Origin: Pseudomonas farris
GTDB taxonomy: Bacteria > Pseudomonadota > Gammaproteobacteria > Pseudomonadales > Pseudomonadaceae
NCBI RefSeq assembly: GCF_019145235.1
Contig: NZ_JAHSTV010000002.1
Coordinates: 1-64,000, forward strand
Reading direction: 5' to 3'
Length of the DNA: 64,000 nt
Shown here in pieces: positions 51,490 through 61,051 of this stretch (position 1 is its first letter; each line of letters opens with the position of its first letter). Position numbers and translations under genes: made by a program. The notes beneath the pieces are model-generated. The model saw nothing but the letters and a program-made list of their open reading frames with translations. It made no database searches and was not told the DNA's origin.

Positions 51490-51958
51490 AATTTATAGAG
51501 TGTTCTAATTGAATGATGTCGATAAGCCGCTAATGTAAAGTTGATGTAACACTTGGGGTGTCCGCGCAGTAGTTGTTTTCCGACGAGTTACGTTGAACTT
51601 ATTTGATTCTGGATAGTATCAATATTATTGCAATGCGCCTGCAATTTGGCAGGTGTTTTTATCTGATAACAAGACGCATTAAGGCACGGTTGAATTTCGC
51701 TGTATATTCATACAAATGGCCTTTTTGTTTGGCTTTTTATAGTCGTAATGTATTGAAATTAAATGATATTATTTTGGTTATTTGCTTGGTGTTTTATGCC
51801 ATTGATAATGGCGAGTTATCCTGTTTGGTGGCAATATTTTGGCAGTGGTAGTGTCAAAAAATAACTTTATAATTAGTCGGGCATTTTTCTGGCGGGGTGC
51901 TAGTGTTGGTAGTCTTGTGTTGGATCACACTTGGCTCGCTTCTTAGGGGGAGTGCATT
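51490..51958. other. AT-rich leader upstream of the exopolysaccharide operon
   Basis: 469 bases of strikingly AT-rich sequence (runs such as AATGATATTATTTTGGTTAT) without a credible gene. It holds a rho-independent terminator-like hairpin at 51636. Such a stretch in a GC-rich genome is a typical target of MvaT/MvaU silencers and holds the promoter of the next operon. Confidence 0.6.
51636..51660 (+). terminator. terminator-like hairpin
   Basis: CGCCTGC, loop AATTT, GGCAGGTG (one G-T pair), then TTTTT. It may end the DUF2238 transcript (147 bases upstream) or attenuate the next operon's leader. Confidence 0.7.
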
Positions 51959-53347
51959 ATGTCGACTCCAAATCCTCGTATTGCGGTTCTTGGTAATAGA
52001 GTTGCCAGTTCTAACATTCCTGAACTCGAACACTTTTCGGATCTAAGCAGCTTATTGGCTGCGCCTGTATTTGATGTTCTGTTGCTTGATATGCCCGCGG
52101 CTTATGCCGGGCGAGTTCTGCGCAAATTGCGCTCAACTACGGCCTATCGCTATCAGCTCGTTTACTGCTGTCGGGATCAGGATGGCTGGTGTGAAGCGCT
52201 GGGCGATGGCCCATGCCCGGCCGAAACAAGCGAAATAAAAACACTGTGGGATATTTGGCGAGGGCGCTTCAACCTGTTCCGGCAGGGGTCTGCGCCCGAA
52301 CGGTTTGAAGGTCGGGTGCTGTCGTGGCTGTGGTTACGCGCCGACGCCCATGTGTTTGCTCTGCGCGACCCCGAAGTCCCCCAACATTATCGCTATCCGC
52401 TGCTCGAAGCACTGGCAGATGCCGAGCAGGTCAACCCGTTTGTCTGGCTCAGTCTGATGGTGCAGCACGACTGGCTGGAAGAGGGCGTGCTGGTCGATCG
52501 GGTACGTCTGTGTTCGGACTGTGGTTCGGGGCGCCTCAATTACATTGATGTGTGCGCCGAATGCCAGGCGATGGACATTTCACGGCAACCTTCATTGCAC
52601 TGTTTCACCTGTGGTCACGTGGGTCATCAGGAGTCGTTTCTCAAGGATGGCCTGTTGCTCTGCCCCAACTGCCTGAACCGTTTGCGGCACATTGGCAGTG
52701 ACTACGATCGCCCTTTGGAAAACTACCGTTGCCGCTCATGCCAGGCGTTTTTTGTCGACGCCGATGTGCAGGCGCGCTGCCTGGATTGCGGCTTGTCACA
52801 CGCGCCCGACAAGTTGCGCATACGTGAAGTTCGAGACTTTCATCTGACGGAAGCGGGGCGCTTCCGTTGTCGCCAGGATTTCAACGATCGATCGATCAAC
52901 CATTTCGGTCGCCTCAATTTGTTGGGCGGCAAGGATTTCTACGAGCTTTTGACCTGGCAGCTCCAAGTGGTGCGTCGTTACCAGCAGCCGGCGTTCTCGT
53001 TGATCGGCCTGCGCTTCGTCAATCTGGCCGGTACGCTGGCGCGTCTTGGCGAGCACCGCGGGCATGCCTTTATCGATAGCCTGACGGATCGGCTGAAAGA
53101 ATCCGTCAGGGAAACCGATCGCTGCTCGCGAAGCACCGAAGAGTTCTTCTGGATCATGCTGCCGCACACGGATGGCAAAGGGCTGGAGTTCGTCACCCAG
53201 CGCTTGAGCCGGGTCGCCGAATTGTTTTCCGCGCCGGAGGTCAGTGACATTTCCCTGCGCGTCGTCAGTTTCACGGCCCCCGGAGATTTGCTCGAGAAAG
53301 AAGACGGTGAGCTGTTGCTGGCCCGTCTTGCCAGTGAGTTGATTTAA
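51959..53347 (+). CDS. TackOD1-like zinc-ribbon protein with degenerate GGDEF domain
   Basis: 462 aa in three parts. Residues 1-70 look like a receiver-like alpha/beta domain (FDVLLLDMPAAYAGRVLRKL). Residues 180-280 carry four or more Cys-x2-Cys pairs (CSDCGSG, CAECQAM, CFTCGHVGH, CPNCLNRL, CRSCQAFF, CLDCGL), matching the TackOD1 metal-binding output domain. Residues 305-460 follow a GGDEF fold, but the active-site motif reads STEEF (in DRCSRSTEEFFWIMLP) instead of GGDEF, so cyclase activity is doubtful. It is the first gene of the exopolysaccharide operon and its probable regulator. Gene 2 starts 3 bases after the stop. Confidence 0.78.
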   Translation: MSTPNPRIAVLGNRVASSNIPELEHFSDLSSLLAAPVFDVLLLDMPAAYAGRVLRKLRSTTAYRYQLVYCCRDQDGWCEALGDGPCPAETSEIKTLWDIWRGRFNLFRQGSAPERFEGRVLSWLWLRADAHVFALRDPEVPQHYRYPLLEALADAEQVNPFVWLSLMVQHDWLEEGVLVDRVRLCSDCGSGRLNYIDVCAECQAMDISRQPSLHCFTCGHVGHQESFLKDGLLLCPNCLNRLRHIGSDYDRPLENYRCRSCQAFFVDADVQARCLDCGLSHAPDKLRIREVRDFHLTEAGRFRCRQDFNDRSINHFGRLNLLGGKDFYELLTWQLQVVRRYQQPAFSLIGLRFVNLAGTLARLGEHRGHAFIDSLTDRLKESVRETDRCSRSTEEFFWIMLPHTDGKGLEFVTQRLSRVAELFSAPEVSDISLRVVSFTAPGDLLEKEDGELLLARLASELI

Positions 53348-53350
53348 GCC

Positions 53351-54679
53351 ATGAGCCCGTTGATGGAGCAACTCTACAGCATGCTTAGCGCAATCATGGG
53401 GACGGACGGTTTGAGCCGGTTGTTCTACATGCTCTTTCCGTTGTTTCTGGTGTTTGAGTTGCCGCTGACGATCATGGTGCTGCTCGGCGTATTGCGCTGG
53501 TTTACCCGTCGGCGCAGCAGCGTGCCGAAGACCAGCCTCTATCGGCCCAAGGTCTCTTGCATCATCACCTGCTACAGCGAAGGGATGGATGTCCAGACCA
53601 CGCTGTTAAGCCTGTGCGAGCAGACCTACCCCGGCCACATCGAGATGATTCCGGTGGTGGACGGCGCCACGATCAATCAACCGACGCTCAGCGCCGTTCG
53701 CAGTTTTTACGTGGACCCGCTGTTGTACCCCCGGCGCCATTTGCGCCCGATCGCCAAATGGCAGAGGGGCGGACGGGTGTCGTCATTGAACGCCGGTTTG
53801 TCCCATGCCAGCGGCGACATCGTCATGGCGCTCGACGGTGATACGTCCTTCGACAACAACATGGTCAGTGCCATCGTGCGCAATTTCGAAGACCCCTCGG
53901 TGCCTGCAGTCGCTGGCAGCCTGCGGGTGCGCAATGTCTGGGGTTCCTGGGTCACGGCGATGCAGGCGCTTGAATACGTGTTGTCGATTCACATGTCGAA
54001 AATCGGCCTGGCCGAATGGAACCTGGTGAATAACGTCTCGGGTGCCTTCGGCGCTTTTCGCCGCAGTTTCCTGGTGAAAATCGGTGGCTGGAACACCCAT
54101 ACCGCGGAAGATCTGGACCTGACGCTGCGCATCAAAAGTTACTTCAAGCGACATGACTTGAGGATTCCCTTCGAGCCGGAAGCCATCGGGCATACCGATG
54201 CACCCGCGACGCTCAGGCAGTTTCTGATGCAGCGTTTGCGCTGGGACGGCGACCTGTTTTTTCTGTACGTCAGAAAGCACAACCACAACATCAACCCGGA
54301 TTTACTGGGCTGGCCAACCTTCCTGATGATCCTGCTCAGTGGCTTCTTTTTCCAGTTGGTGCTGCCGTTCATCATCTTCATCTACACCTTGCTGGCGCTG
54401 TTCATTCTGCCGGGCAAGACGCTGTTGTTTCTGTTTGCGCTGATCTACCTGCTGTACCTGTTAATCACCATGCTGCTGTTTGGCGCCATGTTGTCGATGG
54501 TGTCCGATCGACCTCGACAGGACGTGACCCTGGGGTTGTTGGTGCCTGTCTTCCCTCTGTTCATGCTACTCATTCGGTGCTGGAGCGCAGTGGCCATGCT
54601 CAACGAGATGTTTCGTCGAGGCCATGAAGAAACCTCTATGGCGCCGTGGTGGGTTCTTAAACGAGCCACGAGGTTTTGA
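53351..54679 (+). CDS. processive GT2 glycosyltransferase (polysaccharide synthase)
   Basis: 442 aa. One N-terminal hydrophobic segment pair (FYMLFPLFLVFELPLTIMVL), then a GT2 catalytic domain with the D,D,D,QxxRW set: VVDGATINQ, ALDGDTSFDNNM, HTAEDLDLTLRI, and QRLRWDGD near residue 295. Four membrane segments at the C-terminus (SGFFFQLVLPFIIFIYTLLA and LIYLLYLLITMLLFGAML) form the transport path. QxxRW is typical of processive enzymes such as cellulose, hyaluronan and PNAG synthases, which polymerise and export the chain at once. It has no PilZ domain, so allosteric c-di-GMP control would have to come from a partner. Confidence 0.9.
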   Translation: MSPLMEQLYSMLSAIMGTDGLSRLFYMLFPLFLVFELPLTIMVLLGVLRWFTRRRSSVPKTSLYRPKVSCIITCYSEGMDVQTTLLSLCEQTYPGHIEMIPVVDGATINQPTLSAVRSFYVDPLLYPRRHLRPIAKWQRGGRVSSLNAGLSHASGDIVMALDGDTSFDNNMVSAIVRNFEDPSVPAVAGSLRVRNVWGSWVTAMQALEYVLSIHMSKIGLAEWNLVNNVSGAFGAFRRSFLVKIGGWNTHTAEDLDLTLRIKSYFKRHDLRIPFEPEAIGHTDAPATLRQFLMQRLRWDGDLFFLYVRKHNHNINPDLLGWPTFLMILLSGFFFQLVLPFIIFIYTLLALFILPGKTLLFLFALIYLLYLLITMLLFGAMLSMVSDRPRQDVTLGLLVPVFPLFMLLIRCWSAVAMLNEMFRRGHEETSMAPWWVLKRATRF

Positions 54680-54680
54680 T

Positions 54681-55643
54681 ATGCGATCCGTACTTCTAGC
54701 CTTGACACTGTCGCTGCCCCCCGCGGCGCTCGTTGCACAACCGCTGCCCCTTCAGGATTTGATCGACAAGCAGCAATCGGACCCCATGTTTCGCACCGGC
54801 GAGGCCGACCTGCGGCAACCGCGTTTCTTGCTGGCGTCCACATCAGCGGCAGCGCCGAAAGCAGGGGCAGAGGCGGGGACGAGTTCGGGCAAATGGTCCC
54901 AGGCCAGTTATGTCTGGGACAGCGAAGCGTTGCTCGATCCCGATCGGCGCGAGGCGGAGCTTCAGGCGCTGCGCAAGGCCGGGATGGACAAGATCTACCT
55001 CGGCCTCAAGGCTGCACAGGTCAATGACTTGGTCACGACTCGCCGACGGCTGGAGCAATTGCTTCAGGACGCGGCCCGAGAAGATCTGCAAGTGAGTCTG
55101 TTGCTCGGCGATTCGAGCTGGATCGAGCCGACGGACCGTCACCAGCTCAGCGATTTATTGAAGAAGTTGAAGGGGCTTGCATTCAGCAGCCTGCATCTGG
55201 ACCTCGAGGTCGAACAACTGGGCATGCCCGTCCCCGATCAGCGCCTGAAAAACTGGCTCGATACCTTGCGCATGGCGTCCAGCGAGAGCCCATGGCCGGT
55301 GGAAATATCCAGCCATCATCGCTGGTTCGCTGAACCGAAACCCGGGCAAACCTGTGTGCCGTGTGCGCTTCCCGACGCTGGTGTGCGTCAGGTCAGCCTG
55401 ATGATCTACACCCGCAACCCGAAAAACAGCGCACGCATGACGGAGCAGATCGCCCAGCGCTGGCCGGCTCTGCAATTTCGTTTGGCACAAAGCACAGAAC
55501 CCGAATTGCCAGCCACGGAAAGCTGGGCGGGTGCATCGACTGACCAGTTGAAACACCAGGCCAGCGCCTGGCGCGAACAATTGCAACCGCGGGGGGTTGC
55601 CGGTATCGACTGGCAGGCCTGGCGAGACTTCCCCAAACGGTGA
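54681..55643 (+). CDS. secreted TIM-barrel-like hydrolase candidate of the exopolysaccharide operon
   Basis: 320 aa. Signal peptide MRSVLLALTLSLPPAALVAQ. The body starts YVWDSEALLDPDRREAELQA, then LRKAGMDKIYLGLKAAQVND (beta-alpha repeat), SLLLGDSSWIEP, SSLHLDLEVEQLGMPV with Asp/Glu candidates, and WPVEISSHHRWFAEPKPG. The strand-helix alternation and D/E positions suggest a (beta/alpha)8 hydrolase-like fold, perhaps a glycosidase that trims the polymer. I cannot assign a family. Two bases after the synthase stop, so translation is coupled. ATG 54681 gives a perfect signal peptide. Confidence 0.6.
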   Translation: MRSVLLALTLSLPPAALVAQPLPLQDLIDKQQSDPMFRTGEADLRQPRFLLASTSAAAPKAGAEAGTSSGKWSQASYVWDSEALLDPDRREAELQALRKAGMDKIYLGLKAAQVNDLVTTRRRLEQLLQDAAREDLQVSLLLGDSSWIEPTDRHQLSDLLKKLKGLAFSSLHLDLEVEQLGMPVPDQRLKNWLDTLRMASSESPWPVEISSHHRWFAEPKPGQTCVPCALPDAGVRQVSLMIYTRNPKNSARMTEQIAQRWPALQFRLAQSTEPELPATESWAGASTDQLKHQASAWREQLQPRGVAGIDWQAWRDFPKR

Positions 55644-55649
55644 GCCGTC

Positions 55650-56765
55650 ATGAAAATTCGTTTCGATAGTCGCAAAGAATTGAACCCCACCCAGGAACAG
55701 GGCTTGAGCGTGCTGTACGCACCGAGCAAGCGCATGGCCTTTCGCGCGCGCTGGTATTTGATTCTGTTGCTGGTCGCCAGCCCCTTGATCTGGCTCGGTG
55801 GCAAGCTGGCATACAGCATGCTGATGATCGACGCACCGGCGCAATTGCGTCTGCCGATTTACGAGGTGCGCGCGCGCGATGCCGGCCGGGTCGATCAGCT
55901 GTTTGCAAAGGCGGGTGAGCAAGTCCAGGCCGATCAAATGCTGGTCACTCTGGACAACCCGGAATGGCGGGCCCGGCTGGCGCAACTGGCTGCCATGCCA
56001 ACCAAGGCAACGGGCACAGGCACAGGCACTGCCCAATTGGGCGGCCGCGAGCGTCAATTGCTCAAGACCCGAATCGGCAGGGCGGAACAAAAGATCAAGG
56101 AATTGGAGTACCTGGCTGACCGAGGCGCGGCGGCTCGCGGCGAGGTGCTGGCAGCGCAGTCGGAGCTCGACGGGTTTCGAGCGGACTTGTTGGCGTTTGA
56201 ACGCCGCGAGCAACTGGCGCGTCAGCCCACCCAAAGCGTTGAGCGCGAGATCATTCAGCAGAACGCCGAGCAGCAGTGGTTGAAGACGCGTCTCGCCGCA
56301 TTGTCGATCAAGGCCGGACAGAGCGGCCGGATCGCGGAAGTGCTGGTGACTCCGGGCGAGAACGTCGGCGCCGGCACGCTGTTGATGCGCCTGGAGCGGC
56401 TGGAGGACCCGCTGCTATGGATTTATCTGGAACCGCTCAATATCAGTTACGCCGCGATCGGTCAGCCGTTGCGCGTGCGCATGCCGGATGGCCAGTGGCT
56501 GGCGGCGCATGTGGTTCAGGCGGTAGACAGCGCCGGGCGCACGCCGACGGTGCTGCGCGGCCCGTTTGCCGCCAGTGAAATGGGTTTGCAGGTCGCAGCC
56601 CGGTTCGATGACCCGCTGCCGTCGCGTTGGCGAATCGATCAACTGCCCTTGAATGTTCGCTTCCCCACGGACTGGCAAGAGATGTTCAGCGCCGGTCGGG
56701 AACTCATGGAAAGAGTCGAGGAGTTCGTCGCGATGGATCGACCTACAACCACTACTCCAGAGTGA
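55650..56765 (+). CDS. HlyD-like (Alg44/membrane-fusion type) periplasmic adaptor
   Basis: 371 aa. One N-terminal membrane anchor (WYLILLLVASPLIWLGGKLA), then a biotinyl-lipoyl-like half (PIYEVRARDAGRVDQLFAKA), a coiled coil (KTRIGRAEQKIKELEYLAD; ERREQLARQPTQSVEREII) and the second lipoyl half (IKAGQSGRIAEVLVTPGENV, GAGTLLMRLERL). A beta-barrel follows. This matches the membrane-fusion part of polysaccharide secretion systems (Alg44 has a PilZ plus MFP part; here the PilZ part is missing). It probably links the synthase to an outer-membrane exit that is not encoded here. Confidence 0.85.
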   Translation: MKIRFDSRKELNPTQEQGLSVLYAPSKRMAFRARWYLILLLVASPLIWLGGKLAYSMLMIDAPAQLRLPIYEVRARDAGRVDQLFAKAGEQVQADQMLVTLDNPEWRARLAQLAAMPTKATGTGTGTAQLGGRERQLLKTRIGRAEQKIKELEYLADRGAAARGEVLAAQSELDGFRADLLAFERREQLARQPTQSVEREIIQQNAEQQWLKTRLAALSIKAGQSGRIAEVLVTPGENVGAGTLLMRLERLEDPLLWIYLEPLNISYAAIGQPLRVRMPDGQWLAAHVVQAVDSAGRTPTVLRGPFAASEMGLQVAARFDDPLPSRWRIDQLPLNVRFPTDWQEMFSAGRELMERVEEFVAMDRPTTTTPE

Positions 56766-56772
56766 ATTTGCC

Positions 56773-57720
56773 ATGTCTGCTGATCGAATTCTTGTGACGG
56801 GTGGCGCGGGCTTCATTGGTTCGCACCTGGTCGAAGCCTTGCTTGAAAACGGCTATGGCGTTCGGGTGCTGGATGATCTTTCAACCGGCAAACTGGCGAA
56901 TCTGCCAGTGGACCGTGCGCATTTGAGCCTGATAGTCGGGGATGTCGCGGATGCGCCGACAGTGGAGCGCGCCCTGAAAGATTGCAGCGCGGTGGTGCAT
57001 CTGGCCGCGGTCGCCTCGGTTCAGGCGTCGGTCGAAGACCCGGTCGCCACTCACCAAAGCAACTTCATCGGGACGCTGAATATCTGCGAAGCCATGCGCC
57101 AGGCCGGCCTGAGAAGGGTGGTGTTCGCCTCCAGCGCCGCCATCTATGGCAATAACGGCGAGGGCACGGCCATCACCGAAGACACGCCCAAGGCTCCGTT
57201 GACGCCCTATGCCGCGGACAAACTGGCCAGTGAGCATTTCTTTGATTTTTACCGCCGCCAACATGGTCTGGAACCAGTGATCCTGCGCTTCTTCAACATT
57301 TACGGACCGCGCCAGGACCCGTCATCGCCTTACTCCGGGGTCATCAGTATCTTCAGTGAAAGAGCCCAGAAACACCTGCCCGTCACGGTGTACGGGGACG
57401 GTGAACAGACCCGGGATTTCGTTTATGTGGAGGACCTTGTAAAGGTACTGGTACAGGCGGTGAAAGAGTCGGAGCCGAGCGGCGAACCGGTCAATGTCGG
57501 TTTCAACCGCTCCACCAGCATCAACGAGCTCGCGGCCACGTTGAGCACGCTGCTGGGTCGGCCTCTGGCGTTGAACTACGCTGCACCGCGCTCCGGTGAC
57601 ATCCGCCATTCCCGGGCCGATAACCAGCGTTTGCTTGAACGTTTTCGGTTCACCGAGCCGACTTGTTTTGCCGATGGTTTGGGCCAGTTGCTCCGAAGTC
57701 TGGAGGGCGGTGACCGGTGA
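56773..57720 (+). CDS. NAD-dependent sugar-nucleotide epimerase (GalE/WbpP-type)
   Basis: 315 aa extended SDR: ILVTGGAGFIGSHLVEALLE at the start, VVHLAAVASVQASVEDPVAT, the catalytic SSAAIYGNN and YAADKLASEHFF (S...YxxxK near 145), then FFNIYGPRQDPSSPYSGVIS (substrate loop) and YGDGEQTRDFVYVEDLVKVL. It is a UDP-hexose or UDP-HexNAc C4-epimerase-type enzyme and would supply an activated sugar (for example UDP-Gal, UDP-GalNAc) for the polymer. ATG 56773 lies 7 bases after the adaptor stop. Confidence 0.9.
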   Translation: MSADRILVTGGAGFIGSHLVEALLENGYGVRVLDDLSTGKLANLPVDRAHLSLIVGDVADAPTVERALKDCSAVVHLAAVASVQASVEDPVATHQSNFIGTLNICEAMRQAGLRRVVFASSAAIYGNNGEGTAITEDTPKAPLTPYAADKLASEHFFDFYRRQHGLEPVILRFFNIYGPRQDPSSPYSGVISIFSERAQKHLPVTVYGDGEQTRDFVYVEDLVKVLVQAVKESEPSGEPVNVGFNRSTSINELAATLSTLLGRPLALNYAAPRSGDIRHSRADNQRLLERFRFTEPTCFADGLGQLLRSLEGGDR

Positions 57721-57850
57721 GCTCCGGGGCGTATAACCGGATGGAACTGTTGTCGCAGGCGCACCGTCAATCGAGGATAAGGCCGCCGGACCTCAGACGC
57801 CGAGATGCAGGAGGCCATTATCCTTCGACCCCATGACGGAGGGCCTCTCC

Positions 57851-60800
57851 ATGAGGATCGCTCAGATTGCGCCGCTCACCGAACGTTGTCCGCCCCGTTT
57901 GTACGGTGGCACTGAGCGGATTGTGTCTTACCTGACCGAAGAGTTGGTACGACAGGGACACGATGTCACGCTCTTCGCCAGCGGCGATTCGCAAACCTCG
58001 GCACGCCTGGAACCAGGTGCGCCCCAGGCCCTGCGGTTCGATCCACGCATCAAGGACGGGGCGCCTCATCACATTCTGATGCTCGATCAAGTCCTGCGAC
58101 AGGCGGATCAATTCGACGTGATGCATTTTCATGTCGATATTTTCCATTTTCCTTTGATTCGACACTTGGCCGGGCGCAGCGTGACCACGCTTCACGGGCG
58201 TCTGGACATTGCGGACTACCAATCCTTTTACCCTCACTTTCCCGAAGTGCCGCTGGTCTCGGTGTCCAAGGCGCAACGCACCCCGGTGAAGGGTGACGTC
58301 AATTGGGTGGGCAATGTCTATCACGGCATTCCGAGTGATCTGCTGGCCTTCAACCCTGAACCGAGCGGCGACTATCTGGTGTTTCTGGGGCGTATCTCTC
58401 CCGAAAAACGCCCGGACCGCGCCATCGAAATTGCCTTGAAGGCGGGGCTATCATTGAAGATCGCGGCTAAGGTCGACAGGGCTGATCAGGTGTATTGGGA
58501 AGAAGTCATCGCACCGATGATCGCCGCCCATCCGAATGTCGAATTTCTCGGCGAGATCGATGAATCGCAAAAGGCAGACTTGCTGGGCAATGCTCGCGCC
58601 TTGATCTTTCCCATCGACTGGCCCGAGCCGTTCGGTCTGGTCATGATCGAAGCCATGGCTTGCGGCACGCCGGTGATTGCGTTTGGTCAGGGCTCGGTGC
58701 CGGAAGTGATCGACGAGGGCGTGTCCGGTTACATCGTCGATGGCGTCGCAGGGGCGGTAGCGGCGGTGCAGCGGTTGGCAGAGCTGGATCGGCGCAGGGT
58801 GCGGGCCAGGTTCGACGAACGGTTCACGGTCGAGCGCATGACCAATCACTATCTGGAGTTATATCGCCATCTGACGGCGGGCAACACCTATGGCCATCCC
58901 TCCACGCCCTTCGATATTCCAGCCACCGCGTCGCTGCAAGAGCTGCGCTTGCGCAACCTGAAAAACAACGACACCTTCGCGGTGTTCGATCCCAATGGCG
59001 ACGTGCTGTTTGCGGACGACAGCCCGCAAGGGATTTTCCATACCGACACCCGACACCTTTCCGGGCTCTACCTGACGCTTAACGGCGCGCGGCCGCTGTT
59101 GCTCAGTTCGACGCTGCGTGACGATAACGCGATGCTCACGTGCGACCTGACCAACCCGGATCTGTTCGACGCTCATGGTGAAAAAATCCTGCACCACGAT
59201 TTGATCCATCTGCGCCGCTCACGATTCTTGTGGAATGGCTCCTGTTATGAACGGCTGACCCTGCGCAATTTCGACGATTCGCCCCAGCATCTGCAATTGA
59301 GAATTCAGTTCGCGGCCGACTTCAAAGACCTGTTCGAAGTTCGCGGCGCCCGGCGTCCGCAACGCGGCGAAGGGCACCGGGCAGAGATCACCGATGAAGA
59401 GGTGGTGCTTTCCTACACCGGTCTGGACCACAAACGGCGCATGACCCGCCTGCGTTTTGCCCCGGTGCCGGCCAGCCTGACCTGCGATTCGGCGTTGTTC
59501 GAGGTTCAGCTGGCGCCTGGGGAAAGCCAGTCGTTGTTCATGGACATCAACTGCGGTGTGCAGAACCCACCGTTTACGGTGCGCCACGGGTTCTTCATTT
59601 CATTGCGCGATTCCCGACGCGAGTTACGCACGTTCTCTTCGCGGGCGGCCTCTGTGGTGAGCTCCCACGATGTGTTCAACGAGGCGGTCAGCCGCAGCGT
59701 TTCCGACCTCTACATGCTCATGACCAAAACCCGCGAGGGGCTATATCCCTACGCTGGCATTCCATGGTTCAGCACCGTTTTCGGACGAGATGCGCTGATC
59801 ACTGCATGGGAGATGCTGTGGTTCGATCCCGGTATCGCCAAAGGCGTGCTCGGGCATCTGGCCGCCAACCAGGCAACCATCGTTGACGCCCACGCCGATT
59901 CCGAGCCCGGTAAAATCCTGCACGAAATAAGACTGGGAGAAATGGCCGAATTGGGCGAGGTGCCGTTCCGACGCTACTACGGCAGCATCGATTCCACACC
60001 GCTGTTCGTCATGTTGGCCGCCGCGTACCTGGAGCGCACCAATGATTTGGGCACAGTGCGTCAGCTCTGGCCGAATATTGAGGCGGCGCTGACCTGGATC
60101 GAGGAGTACGGCGACCGCGATGGCGATGGTTTTGTCGAGTATGGCCGGCAGTCCGCCGAGGGGCTGATTAACCAGGGCTGGAAAGACAGCCACGATTCGG
60201 TTTTCCATGCCGATGGGCAATTGGCCGTGGGCCCGATTGCGATTGTCGAAGTTCAGGCCTATGTGTATGGCGCCTGGACGGGGGCCGCCAAAATCGCTCG
60301 TCGGCTGGGTGATCCGGAGCGGGCTCAGCGCCTGAAATACAAGGCTCAACGCTTGCGTGAAGAATTCGATTCCCGTTTCTTCGACGAAGAACTGGGCACT
60401 TATGTATTGGCCTTGGACGGCAACAAGAAACCCTGTCGAATCCGTACCTCCAATGCCGGTCATGCCCTGTTCGCCGGCATCGCTTACCCGGAGCGCGCGG
60501 CATCGGTCGTCAGCGCGCTGATGGACCGCTCATCCTTTTCCGGCTGGGGCGTGCGCACCGTGGCGTCTTCCCAGGCTCGCTATAACCCGATGAGTTATCA
60601 CAACGGCTCCGTCTGGCCCCACGACAATGCGCTGATCGCCGCTGGTTTCGCCCGCTACGGTTACCGTCGGGACGCGGCGCGGATTTTCGAAGGCCTGTTC
60701 GCCGCGTCGACCTACATCGATCTGCGGCGCTTGCCCGAACTGTTTTGCGGCTTTGCCCGGCAACGCACCCAAGGGCCGACGTTCTATCCAGTCGCCTGCA

Positions 60801-61051
60801 TGCCCCAGGCCTGGGCCGCTGCTGCACCGTTGTCGATGATTCAGTCGTGCCTGGGGCTGAGCTTCAGGCCGAGGAAACTCAACATCCTGTTCGACGAACC
60901 GGTGCTCCCGGCATTTCTGGACACCATCGCCTTGCGGCGTTTGGCAGTGGGTGCTGAATGTGTGGACTTGATGCTCCGGCGTTCGGGGGAAAACGTCATG
61001 ATCGAGGTTCTCAATCGCCAGGGCCCGGTGCGGATTTTGAGTACCAGTTAG
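57851..61051 (+). CDS. GT4 glycosyltransferase fused to amylo-alpha-1,6-glucosidase
   Basis: 1066 aa from ATG 57851 (GGAGG 8 bases upstream; an in-frame start at 57833 adds six residues). Residues 1-345 form a GT4 (GT-B) domain: RLYGGTERIVSYLTEELVRQ, FLGRISPEKRPDRAIEIALK, PIDWPEPFGLVMIEAMACGT (E-x7-E). Residues 360-1060 are a glycogen-debranching-type amylo-alpha-1,6-glucosidase: VFDPNGDVLFADDSPQGIFH, DTRHLSGLYLTLNGARPLLL, PWFSTVFGRDALITAWEMLW, GSIDSTPLFVMLAAAYLERT, HNGSVWPHDNALIAAGFARY. A large single protein, possibly acting on an alpha-glucan. It follows the epimerase by 130 bases and may belong to the same locus. Confidence 0.88.
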   Translation: MRIAQIAPLTERCPPRLYGGTERIVSYLTEELVRQGHDVTLFASGDSQTSARLEPGAPQALRFDPRIKDGAPHHILMLDQVLRQADQFDVMHFHVDIFHFPLIRHLAGRSVTTLHGRLDIADYQSFYPHFPEVPLVSVSKAQRTPVKGDVNWVGNVYHGIPSDLLAFNPEPSGDYLVFLGRISPEKRPDRAIEIALKAGLSLKIAAKVDRADQVYWEEVIAPMIAAHPNVEFLGEIDESQKADLLGNARALIFPIDWPEPFGLVMIEAMACGTPVIAFGQGSVPEVIDEGVSGYIVDGVAGAVAAVQRLAELDRRRVRARFDERFTVERMTNHYLELYRHLTAGNTYGHPSTPFDIPATASLQELRLRNLKNNDTFAVFDPNGDVLFADDSPQGIFHTDTRHLSGLYLTLNGARPLLLSSTLRDDNAMLTCDLTNPDLFDAHGEKILHHDLIHLRRSRFLWNGSCYERLTLRNFDDSPQHLQLRIQFAADFKDLFEVRGARRPQRGEGHRAEITDEEVVLSYTGLDHKRRMTRLRFAPVPASLTCDSALFEVQLAPGESQSLFMDINCGVQNPPFTVRHGFFISLRDSRRELRTFSSRAASVVSSHDVFNEAVSRSVSDLYMLMTKTREGLYPYAGIPWFSTVFGRDALITAWEMLWFDPGIAKGVLGHLAANQATIVDAHADSEPGKILHEIRLGEMAELGEVPFRRYYGSIDSTPLFVMLAAAYLERTNDLGTVRQLWPNIEAALTWIEEYGDRDGDGFVEYGRQSAEGLINQGWKDSHDSVFHADGQLAVGPIAIVEVQAYVYGAWTGAAKIARRLGDPERAQRLKYKAQRLREEFDSRFFDEELGTYVLALDGNKKPCRIRTSNAGHALFAGIAYPERAASVVSALMDRSSFSGWGVRTVASSQARYNPMSYHNGSVWPHDNALIAAGFARYGYRRDAARIFEGLFAASTYIDLRRLPELFCGFARQRTQGPTFYPVACMPQAWAAAAPLSMIQSCLGLSFRPRKLNILFDEPVLPAFLDTIALRRLAVGAECVDLMLRRSGENVMIEVLNRQGPVRILSTS

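Follow-up and report, generated by a model that had tools for sequence, protein, structure and literature searches.

Cellulose export in cyanobacteria has been modelled as a route through XcsA, XcsB and TolC, an arrangement reportedly due to Maeda et al. 2018. We compare this and other described systems with an operon at positions 51,959-57,720 of a 64,000-nucleotide stretch of Pseudomonas farris DNA (contig NZ_JAHSTV010000002.1; the whole stretch is referred to as the window), which encodes a TackOD1 zinc-ribbon protein, a membrane family-2 glycosyltransferase (GT2), a secreted barrel protein (protein 3), a HlyD-type periplasmic adaptor and an epimerase. In relatives of the window, protein 3 is a fusion of a TolC-fold channel and a TIM barrel, whereas the window has lost the pore half; gene order, domain make-up, fusion and loss all follow directly from the computation. 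We infer a polymeric product, its outward export, control by cyclic di-GMP (c-di-GMP) and the borrowing of a channel. The operon is thus probably a synthase-dependent polysaccharide system with HlyD-TolC-style export, possibly under c-di-GMP control, in which the window lineage would borrow a generic TolC-type channel. A search by title and by the start of abstracts, covering exopolysaccharide systems of HlyD/TolC type, TolC-TIM fusions and the Pseudomonas species concerned, returned no description of this operon (one further paper, PMC9888727, deals with a different locus in Vibrio), and TackOD1 was named only in an archaeal paper (PMC5847659); most subscription journals lay outside the coverage of both searches, which leaves absence from the literature unproven.

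Statements on published systems refer to the portions of the cited texts that were available. The Xcs route is a proposed tripartite exporter for which, according to a review, experimental confirmation is lacking (PMC12430437). It resembles the present system in combining a GT2 synthase, a HlyD-like adaptor and a TolC-like channel, with a separate endoglucanase. However, the Xcs synthase carries a PilZ or PCR domain, whereas protein 2 has no PilZ, and the Xcs channel is encoded outside the operon (PMC12430437). In relatives of the window with a long protein 3, the channel is instead fused to the TIM barrel inside the operon, control probably lies with TackOD1, and some lineages have lost the channel. 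The rhizobial bgsBA system for mixed-linkage beta-glucan also pairs a GT2 lacking PilZ with a HlyD-domain protein; it is a two-gene operon activated by c-di-GMP (PMC9495663; PMC5567048), while such control is only putative for the window operon. In bgsBA, c-di-GMP binds the C-terminus of the synthase itself, and TackOD1, TIM-barrel and epimerase genes are absent from the system as the available part of its description presents it (PMC9495663).

Pel biosynthesis is comparable in its control protein, which has RxxD and lacks a GGDEF motif (PMC2170427), and presumably in the epimerase, which is closely related to PelX (PMC9135694). The synthase is a different one, however, and PelG gave no match in the window genome (one of six operon-bearing genomes, G131, has it). 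Pel also leaves the cell by an exit that differs from the TolC type. The PgaABCD system for poly-N-acetylglucosamine (PNAG) is similar in that PgaC is the nearest model for the synthase and that the barrel fold is like, among others, the hydrolase domain of PgaB, but the synthase falls far below the PgaC cut-off. PNAG exits through a PgaA-type porin, in contrast to the TolC-type exit in relatives of the window. The Alg44-type adaptor of alginate carries PilZ, whereas Pfam places no PilZ domain in any protein of the window operon. Archaeal TackOD1 regulators contain the same zinc-ribbon domain, often behind a receiver domain, but belong to thaumarchaeal type IV pilus loci (PMC5847659); in the window, TackOD1 is followed by a degenerate GGDEF and lies beside a polysaccharide synthase. 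In working principle the operon appears nearest to XcsA-XcsB-TolC and bgsBA, and on the features tested we would file it under neither.

It is an open question by what route a polysaccharide made by a synthase exits where no dedicated beta-barrel is present, the cyanobacterial TolC route being unproven and its genes not lying in one operon according to the review (PMC12430437). Here, synthase, adaptor, TolC-type channel and hydrolase-like barrel are found together in one operon of soil-type Pseudomonas, and an orphan zinc-ribbon domain, TackOD1, is tied to polysaccharide synthases across the phylum. We tentatively propose, as a possibility somewhat short of an even chance, that these loci represent a widespread new class of polysaccharide machine: a TackOD1/pseudo-GGDEF receptor would switch the GT2, and the TolC-barrel exit would be a replaceable module that has been cut repeatedly, leaving either export through a housekeeping TolC or a periplasmic polymer. 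If true, this would to our knowledge provide the first function for bacterial TackOD1 proteins and the first repeated pore loss within an otherwise kept exporter operon. Pseudomonas mandelii 29 (with pore) and Pseudomonas lini DSM 16768 (without), separated by a clean deletion in gene 3, constitute a natural experiment. The features of the locus are as follows:

51490-51958, + strand: AT-rich leader or promoter region, G+C 0.37 in the 400 bases measured.
51959-53347, + strand: TackOD1 protein (protein 1), with a receiver-like N-terminus (residues ~1-110), zinc ribbons (113-296) and a GGDEF fold (~315-462), from Pfam and AlphaFold2.
53351-54679, + strand: membrane GT2 (protein 2) with QxxRW and no PilZ, from Pfam, NCBIfam, motif patterns and hydrophobic segments.
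54681-55643, + strand: secreted TIM-barrel protein (protein 3), short form, its fold predicted from the long relative L064.
54814-54815, + strand: deletion junction, where ~400 residues of a TolC-like outer-membrane factor present in L064 are missing, from DNA comparison of the window, L061, L062, L064 and L065 with shuffle tests.
55650-56765, + strand: HlyD-type periplasmic adaptor with one N-terminal hydrophobic segment and no PilZ, from Pfam HlyD_D23, HlyD_3 and biotinyl-lipoyl.
56773-57720, + strand: NAD-dependent epimerase, PelX-like and accessory, best solved relatives 6wjb and 6wj9.
57833-61051, + strand: GT4 fused to amylo-alpha-1,6-glucosidase, a neighbour outside the conserved core, from Pfam.

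Gene calling gave five tightly packed + strand genes separated by 3, 1, 6 and 7 bases, gaps identical to those in the initial annotation, which had read the locus as a TackOD1-linked synthase-dependent exopolysaccharide operon. The QxxRW GT2 and its conserved link to TackOD1 partly bear this title out, while an outer-membrane exit encoded with them is missing from the window. For protein 3, the longest reading frame opens at 54624; the conserved signal-peptide start MRSVLLAL at 54681 was used.

Relatives were collected as a named set of 81 loci, comprising the window and the best 80 of 224 relatives; these are mostly from Pseudomonas, with Stutzerimonas, Marinobacter, Vreelandella and some Burkholderiales. 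The order TackOD1-GT2-protein 3-HlyD is complete in 77 of the 81, the remaining four being cut by contig ends, and the first four genes are the conserved core of this set. Of 149 genomes sampled from the genus, 15 contain TackOD1, that of the window among them, and the same four-gene order was found in all 14 other Pseudomonas loci. More widely, TackOD1 exceeded the cut-off in 14 of 274 class genomes (12 full length) and in 15 of 398 phylum genomes; two partial matches over the cut-off (G299, G322) and six genomes below it were not carried forward from the class scan, nor were three below it from the phylum scan. GT2 and HlyD genes lie beside TackOD1 in 39 of the 40 loci examined across genus, class and phylum (the window, 14 genus, 11 class and 14 phylum loci), the exception being L052. 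This count includes weak or fragmentary matches for HlyD in L059, L169 and L171, and for GT2 in L059. Because 39 of 40 loci share it, the TackOD1-GT2-HlyD triad is taken as the constant unit. Five distant relatives (L057, L058, L165, L170 and L171) have the order large protein-HlyD-TackOD1-GT2; the large protein gives a weak TIM-barrel match in the first three, whereas in L170 and L171 it comes after a small secreted protein that looks TPR-like by eye. In L174, from the same phylum, the triad adjoins a further adaptor-like protein and what its first residues suggest is a second membrane protein of the cellulose-synthase type.

Protein 3 is long in 47 of the 77 complete loci of the named set (573-762 residues, mostly ~700) and short in the other 30, window included (277-341 residues). 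The long form consists of a TolC-fold outer-membrane factor in the N-terminal half and a TIM barrel. Against the Pfam OEP family (cut-off 22 bits), the N-terminal half scores 33.8 bits in L064, 36.5 in L022 and 56.2 in L053, where an AMIN domain lies ahead of the channel; L016 reaches 18.1 bits, below the cut-off, and the distant L057 gave no OEP match. An AlphaFold2 model of the L064 protein, computed from a 36-row alignment, has a mean pLDDT (predicted local distance difference test) of 87. Its predicted template modelling score (pTM) is low at 0.56, leaving the mutual placement of the two halves undefined, and a low-confidence linker joins the TolC fold to the barrel. The channel half overlays on the TolC crystal structure 1ek9 with Z 23.2 (root-mean-square deviation (rmsd) 6.3, 389 residues) and on the cross-linking model 9a2x with Z 24.2 (rmsd 4.8, 390 residues). 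The short protein of the window has no Pfam match and lacks the channel domain. Its signal peptide agrees with the secreted protein first annotated, and the "barrel-like" part of that description proves to be a TIM barrel as opposed to an outer-membrane beta-barrel.

The barrel half of L064 matches Cwp19 (Z 18.9), a GH18 chitinase (Z 17.3), a GH5 mannanase (Z 17.0) and the PgaB hydrolase domain (Z 16.7). An acidic DLEVE motif is invariant in all 36 aligned barrels. PelA does not appear among the 50 fold matches listed, an absence that carries no weight. Three points count against a hydrolase function: PgaB shares its rank among the fold matches with GH5 mannanases and others (matches within Z 1 of each other being treated as tied), Foldseek also returns proteins that are not hydrolases, isocitrate lyase and allulose epimerase among them, and the barrel belongs to no Pfam family. 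A hydrolase role is for these reasons a guess from the fold. Sequence searches for solved relatives of the barrel returned nothing convincing, one search matching the channel half only.

The window protein retains the signal peptide and ~25 residues of the former channel domain, followed by the linker and the barrel, with ~400 residues missing in frame. The point of comparison is L064 from P. mandelii strain 29, which keeps the pore and is 96-98% identical to the window in TackOD1, GT2, adaptor and epimerase. It had been suggested to look for the exit gene elsewhere; the exit is instead the N-terminal half of gene 3, deleted in the window lineage. One junction is common to the window, L061/L063 and L062, and a different one is present in L065 (P. 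lini DSM 16768). The two are non-nested, the window keeping N-terminal sequence absent in L065 and L065 keeping linker sequence absent in the window; the pore was therefore lost at least twice.

Other histories were considered. That the window and P. lini descend from one deletion, later trimmed, was rejected by junction shuffle tests. The sequence before the P. lini junction agrees with the L064 linker at 17 of 18 bases, equalled in 0 of 2000 shuffles against 492 of 2000 for the corresponding window sequence, while the sequence before the window junction agrees with the L064 N-terminus (0 of 2000, against 490 of 2000 for P. lini). An assembly error was rejected on the basis of the identical junction in the window, L061 and L062, which come from different assemblies. 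Relocation of the channel was rejected by searching ten genomes with the channel half of L022 at E 0.001, a threshold at which generic channels do not match: it found two long-form genomes (one its own) and a 60-residue remnant in the window genome, and had no match in the seven other short-form genomes. L061 and L063 (Pseudomonas frederiksbergensis 36C6, NZ_MOBM01000038.1) are 21,386 bases, 100% identical, present twice in opposite orientation ~65 kb apart on a single 'Joined_contig'. This is probably an assembly artefact, and possibly a recent inverted duplication.

All sampled loci of the sister clade of the window clade are short, and in the distant metagenome-assembled genome L140 an apparent lipoprotein signal precedes the barrel; both are likely further pore losses. 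The count would then be at least two events in the window clade and probably one each in the sister clade and L140. In gene trees the long L064 falls, weakly supported, beside the window inside the short clade; the deletions may therefore have been passed between relatives, or L064 may have regained its pore by such exchange. The L140 contig is labelled uncultured Synechococcus, a label made doubtful by its operon proteins, which group with Pseudomonas sp. 8AS and P. fluvialis. In the operon tree, the record "Pantoea sp. Ap-967" (L128) also falls among Pseudomonas and is probably misnamed.

Short-form operons are under purifying selection and are not visibly decaying. Ratios of non-synonymous to synonymous divergence (dN/dS) are simple pairwise estimates, and pairs with different junctions include divergence that predates the deletions. 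Within the window clade, four pairs of short loci give dN/dS values of 0.072-0.094 for TackOD1, 0.049-0.084 for GT2, 0.019-0.061 for the barrel, 0.045-0.071 for the adaptor and 0.027-0.067 for the epimerase. The barrel gives 0.115-0.179 in four long-long pairs elsewhere and 0.075-0.136 in sister-clade pairs, for which all tested genes span 0.063-0.168. That these operons are decaying remnants of a polysaccharide locus, as the absence of a defining part such as the exit channel might suggest, is already disfavoured and very improbable: every one of the 30 short loci has an uninterrupted frame that runs into the barrel from what by eye resembles a signal-peptide start, and the remaining genes show dN/dS of ~0.02-0.12 in the window clade and ~0.06-0.17 in sister-clade pairs.

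On the reading we favour, the GT2 would polymerise a sugar nucleotide at the inner membrane and pass the chain out of the cytoplasm, and the HlyD adaptor would connect the synthase to a TolC-type trimer in the outer membrane. The TIM barrel, which in the long form would hang into the periplasm from the C-terminus of the channel, may trim or guide the chain in the manner of the PgaB hydrolase domain. The TackOD1 protein would act as a cytoplasmic controller that activates the synthase, sensing either c-di-GMP at RxxD or another signal via the zinc ribbons or receiver-like domain. With its dedicated channel excised in frame, the adaptor of the window lineage would now borrow one of ~16 generic TolC/OprM-type channels. 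The window genome contains 16 reading frames of this kind matching OEP (from 32 paired matches). Excluding the operon's own channel where present, other outer-membrane factors number 17 in the short-form L065 genome (G802) and 15 in that of L062 (G804), compared with 18 and 17 in the long-form L064 (G801) and L077 (G803) genomes.

Several points weigh against this reading. No gain of outer-membrane factors is visible in the short genomes among the five counted, although a partner swap would escape such counts; a system without its channel could just as well retain its product in the periplasm; and for none of the members did our searches return data on a polymer, a phenotype, expression or binding. 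The product may have become a periplasmic glycan after channel loss, with the GT2 feeding the periplasm and the TIM barrel processing the glycan there, as for osmoregulated periplasmic glucans. Channel loss has recurred although strong purifying selection continues to act on synthase, adaptor and barrel, no replacement channel is seen to have been gained, and nine class loci (L051, L054, L056, L060, L162, L164 and L166-L168) have the triad with no channel or barrel profile match in the stretch fetched, all of which fits this alternative. We nevertheless consider it unlikely, since all 30 short loci retain the HlyD adaptor, a protein that usually partners an outer-membrane factor, and many generic channels are available.

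Pfam assigns protein 2 to GT2, and QxxRW, [TA]ED and D[GA]D patterns occur in all 79 GT2 proteins checked, the window among them; a QxxRW synthase without PilZ had been annotated from the start. The best NCBIfam model is PgaC/IcaA at 134.3 bits, below its cut-off of 422.3, followed by NodC at 85 bits (cut-off 550), while the CelA/BcsA cellulose synthase model gives 19.9 bits (cut-off 699.1). The best solved match is the family-2 glycosyltransferase 6yv7, and hyaluronan synthases follow. The NodC match, together with the fact that TolC-HlyD machines usually export small molecules or proteins, could indicate that what leaves the cell is not a polymer but a small oligosaccharide or a glycolipid resembling chitooligosaccharides. 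This seems improbable, more so than a periplasmic glycan, as the best model is a polymer synthase (PgaC/IcaA, although also below its cut-off) and the barrel resembles, among others, the polymer hydrolase PgaB.

The adaptor has no solved relative by sequence at E 0.1. The initial description, "Alg44-like adaptor without PilZ", is accurate for a HlyD-type adaptor lacking PilZ; with no PilZ and no solved relative, the Alg44 label is too specific. The best solved relatives of the epimerase are 6wjb (474 bits over 310 residues), which we take to be PelX of P. protegens, and 6wj9 (471 bits). PelX is a C4-epimerase acting on UDP-N-acetylglucosamine to make UDP-N-acetylgalactosamine for Pel (PMC9135694). 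A PelX-like epimerase hints at N-acetylgalactosamine in the polymer without demonstrating it, and an amino-sugar polymer, though reasonable to suppose, stays a guess. Elsewhere the window genome encodes a second homologue with 69% identity. The epimerase adjoins the adaptor in 21 of 80 loci; its annotation as a fifth operon gene is right as to identity, while in the family it is an accessory to the four-gene core. The statement that the operon matches none of the alginate, Psl, Pel, cellulose or PNAG sets is upheld in part, by the scores against PgaC (134 against 422) and CelA (20 against 699), the adaptor without PilZ and the missing PelG.

Protein 1 matches TackOD1 (PF18551) with 207.8 bits (cut-off 32) and GGDEF weakly with 28.4 bits (cut-off 23.8) in Pfam. 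Its AlphaFold2 model (pLDDT 80.7, pTM 0.64) contains a receiver-like domain, zinc ribbons and a GGDEF fold, and matches GGDEF structures with Z ~14 over ~138 residues at an rmsd of ~3; full-length PleD and WspR are also among the structural matches, with large rmsd. Conservation was followed in 119 TackOD1 proteins, which like the 81 loci are non-independent, since some genomes were drawn into the unnamed as well as the named set and L061 and L063 are identical. Each of the 12 zinc-ribbon cysteines is kept in at least 109 of the 119, nine of the columns in all 119. GG[DE]E[FL] was found in the last 200 residues of none of the 119 (the window has TEEFF), leaving no active-diguanylate-cyclase site, and RxxD is present at the I-site position in 115 (RETD in the window). 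The aspartate taken as that of the receiver is kept in only 88 of 119, making receiver phosphorylation uncertain.

These features make the TackOD1/degenerate-GGDEF protein a plausible second-messenger input, as had been suggested. The domains and the RxxD agree with that suggestion, but RxxD does not demonstrate c-di-GMP binding, being found also in 23 of 26 readable ordinary GGDEF domains of the window genome; here, 30 of 40 matches had loci, and a script count of 24 R..D and 5 other was corrected by eye for three spurious internal matches. With RxxD this common, it is only permissive evidence for c-di-GMP, which tells against that part of our reading. The protein might instead steer the synthase via zinc, redox or the receiver-like domain, with a purely structural GGDEF fold and c-di-GMP uninvolved. 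The cysteine ligands are its most conserved feature, RxxD is generic, and in archaea TackOD1 serves response regulators as their output domain (PMC5847659). Even so, RxxD is kept almost throughout although the catalytic motif is kept nowhere, the combination seen in PelD, a c-di-GMP receptor with RxxD and without the GGDEF motif (PMC2170427), and we regard control independent of c-di-GMP as rather unlikely, while giving it more weight than either alternative product.

The leader has a G+C content of 0.37 compared with 0.60 for the locus, confirming the AT-rich leader noted at first; of the initial suggestion that MvaT-like proteins may silence the operon, it is the AT-richness that the analysis shows. 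Leaders below 0.45 are confined to 31 of 80 loci, which make up the window clade, its sister clade and L077; the other 49 lack such a leader. A simple scan of the + strand of the leader found no sigma-70-like site; promoter-like sites were as frequent as in shuffles, and terminator-like sites slightly commoner. Clustering of neighbours across the loci identified no additional gene kept in most of them. The downstream GT4/amylo-alpha-1,6-glucosidase gene (1072 residues, glycogen-debranching type) is present in 9 of 80 loci, comprising the window clade and three others.

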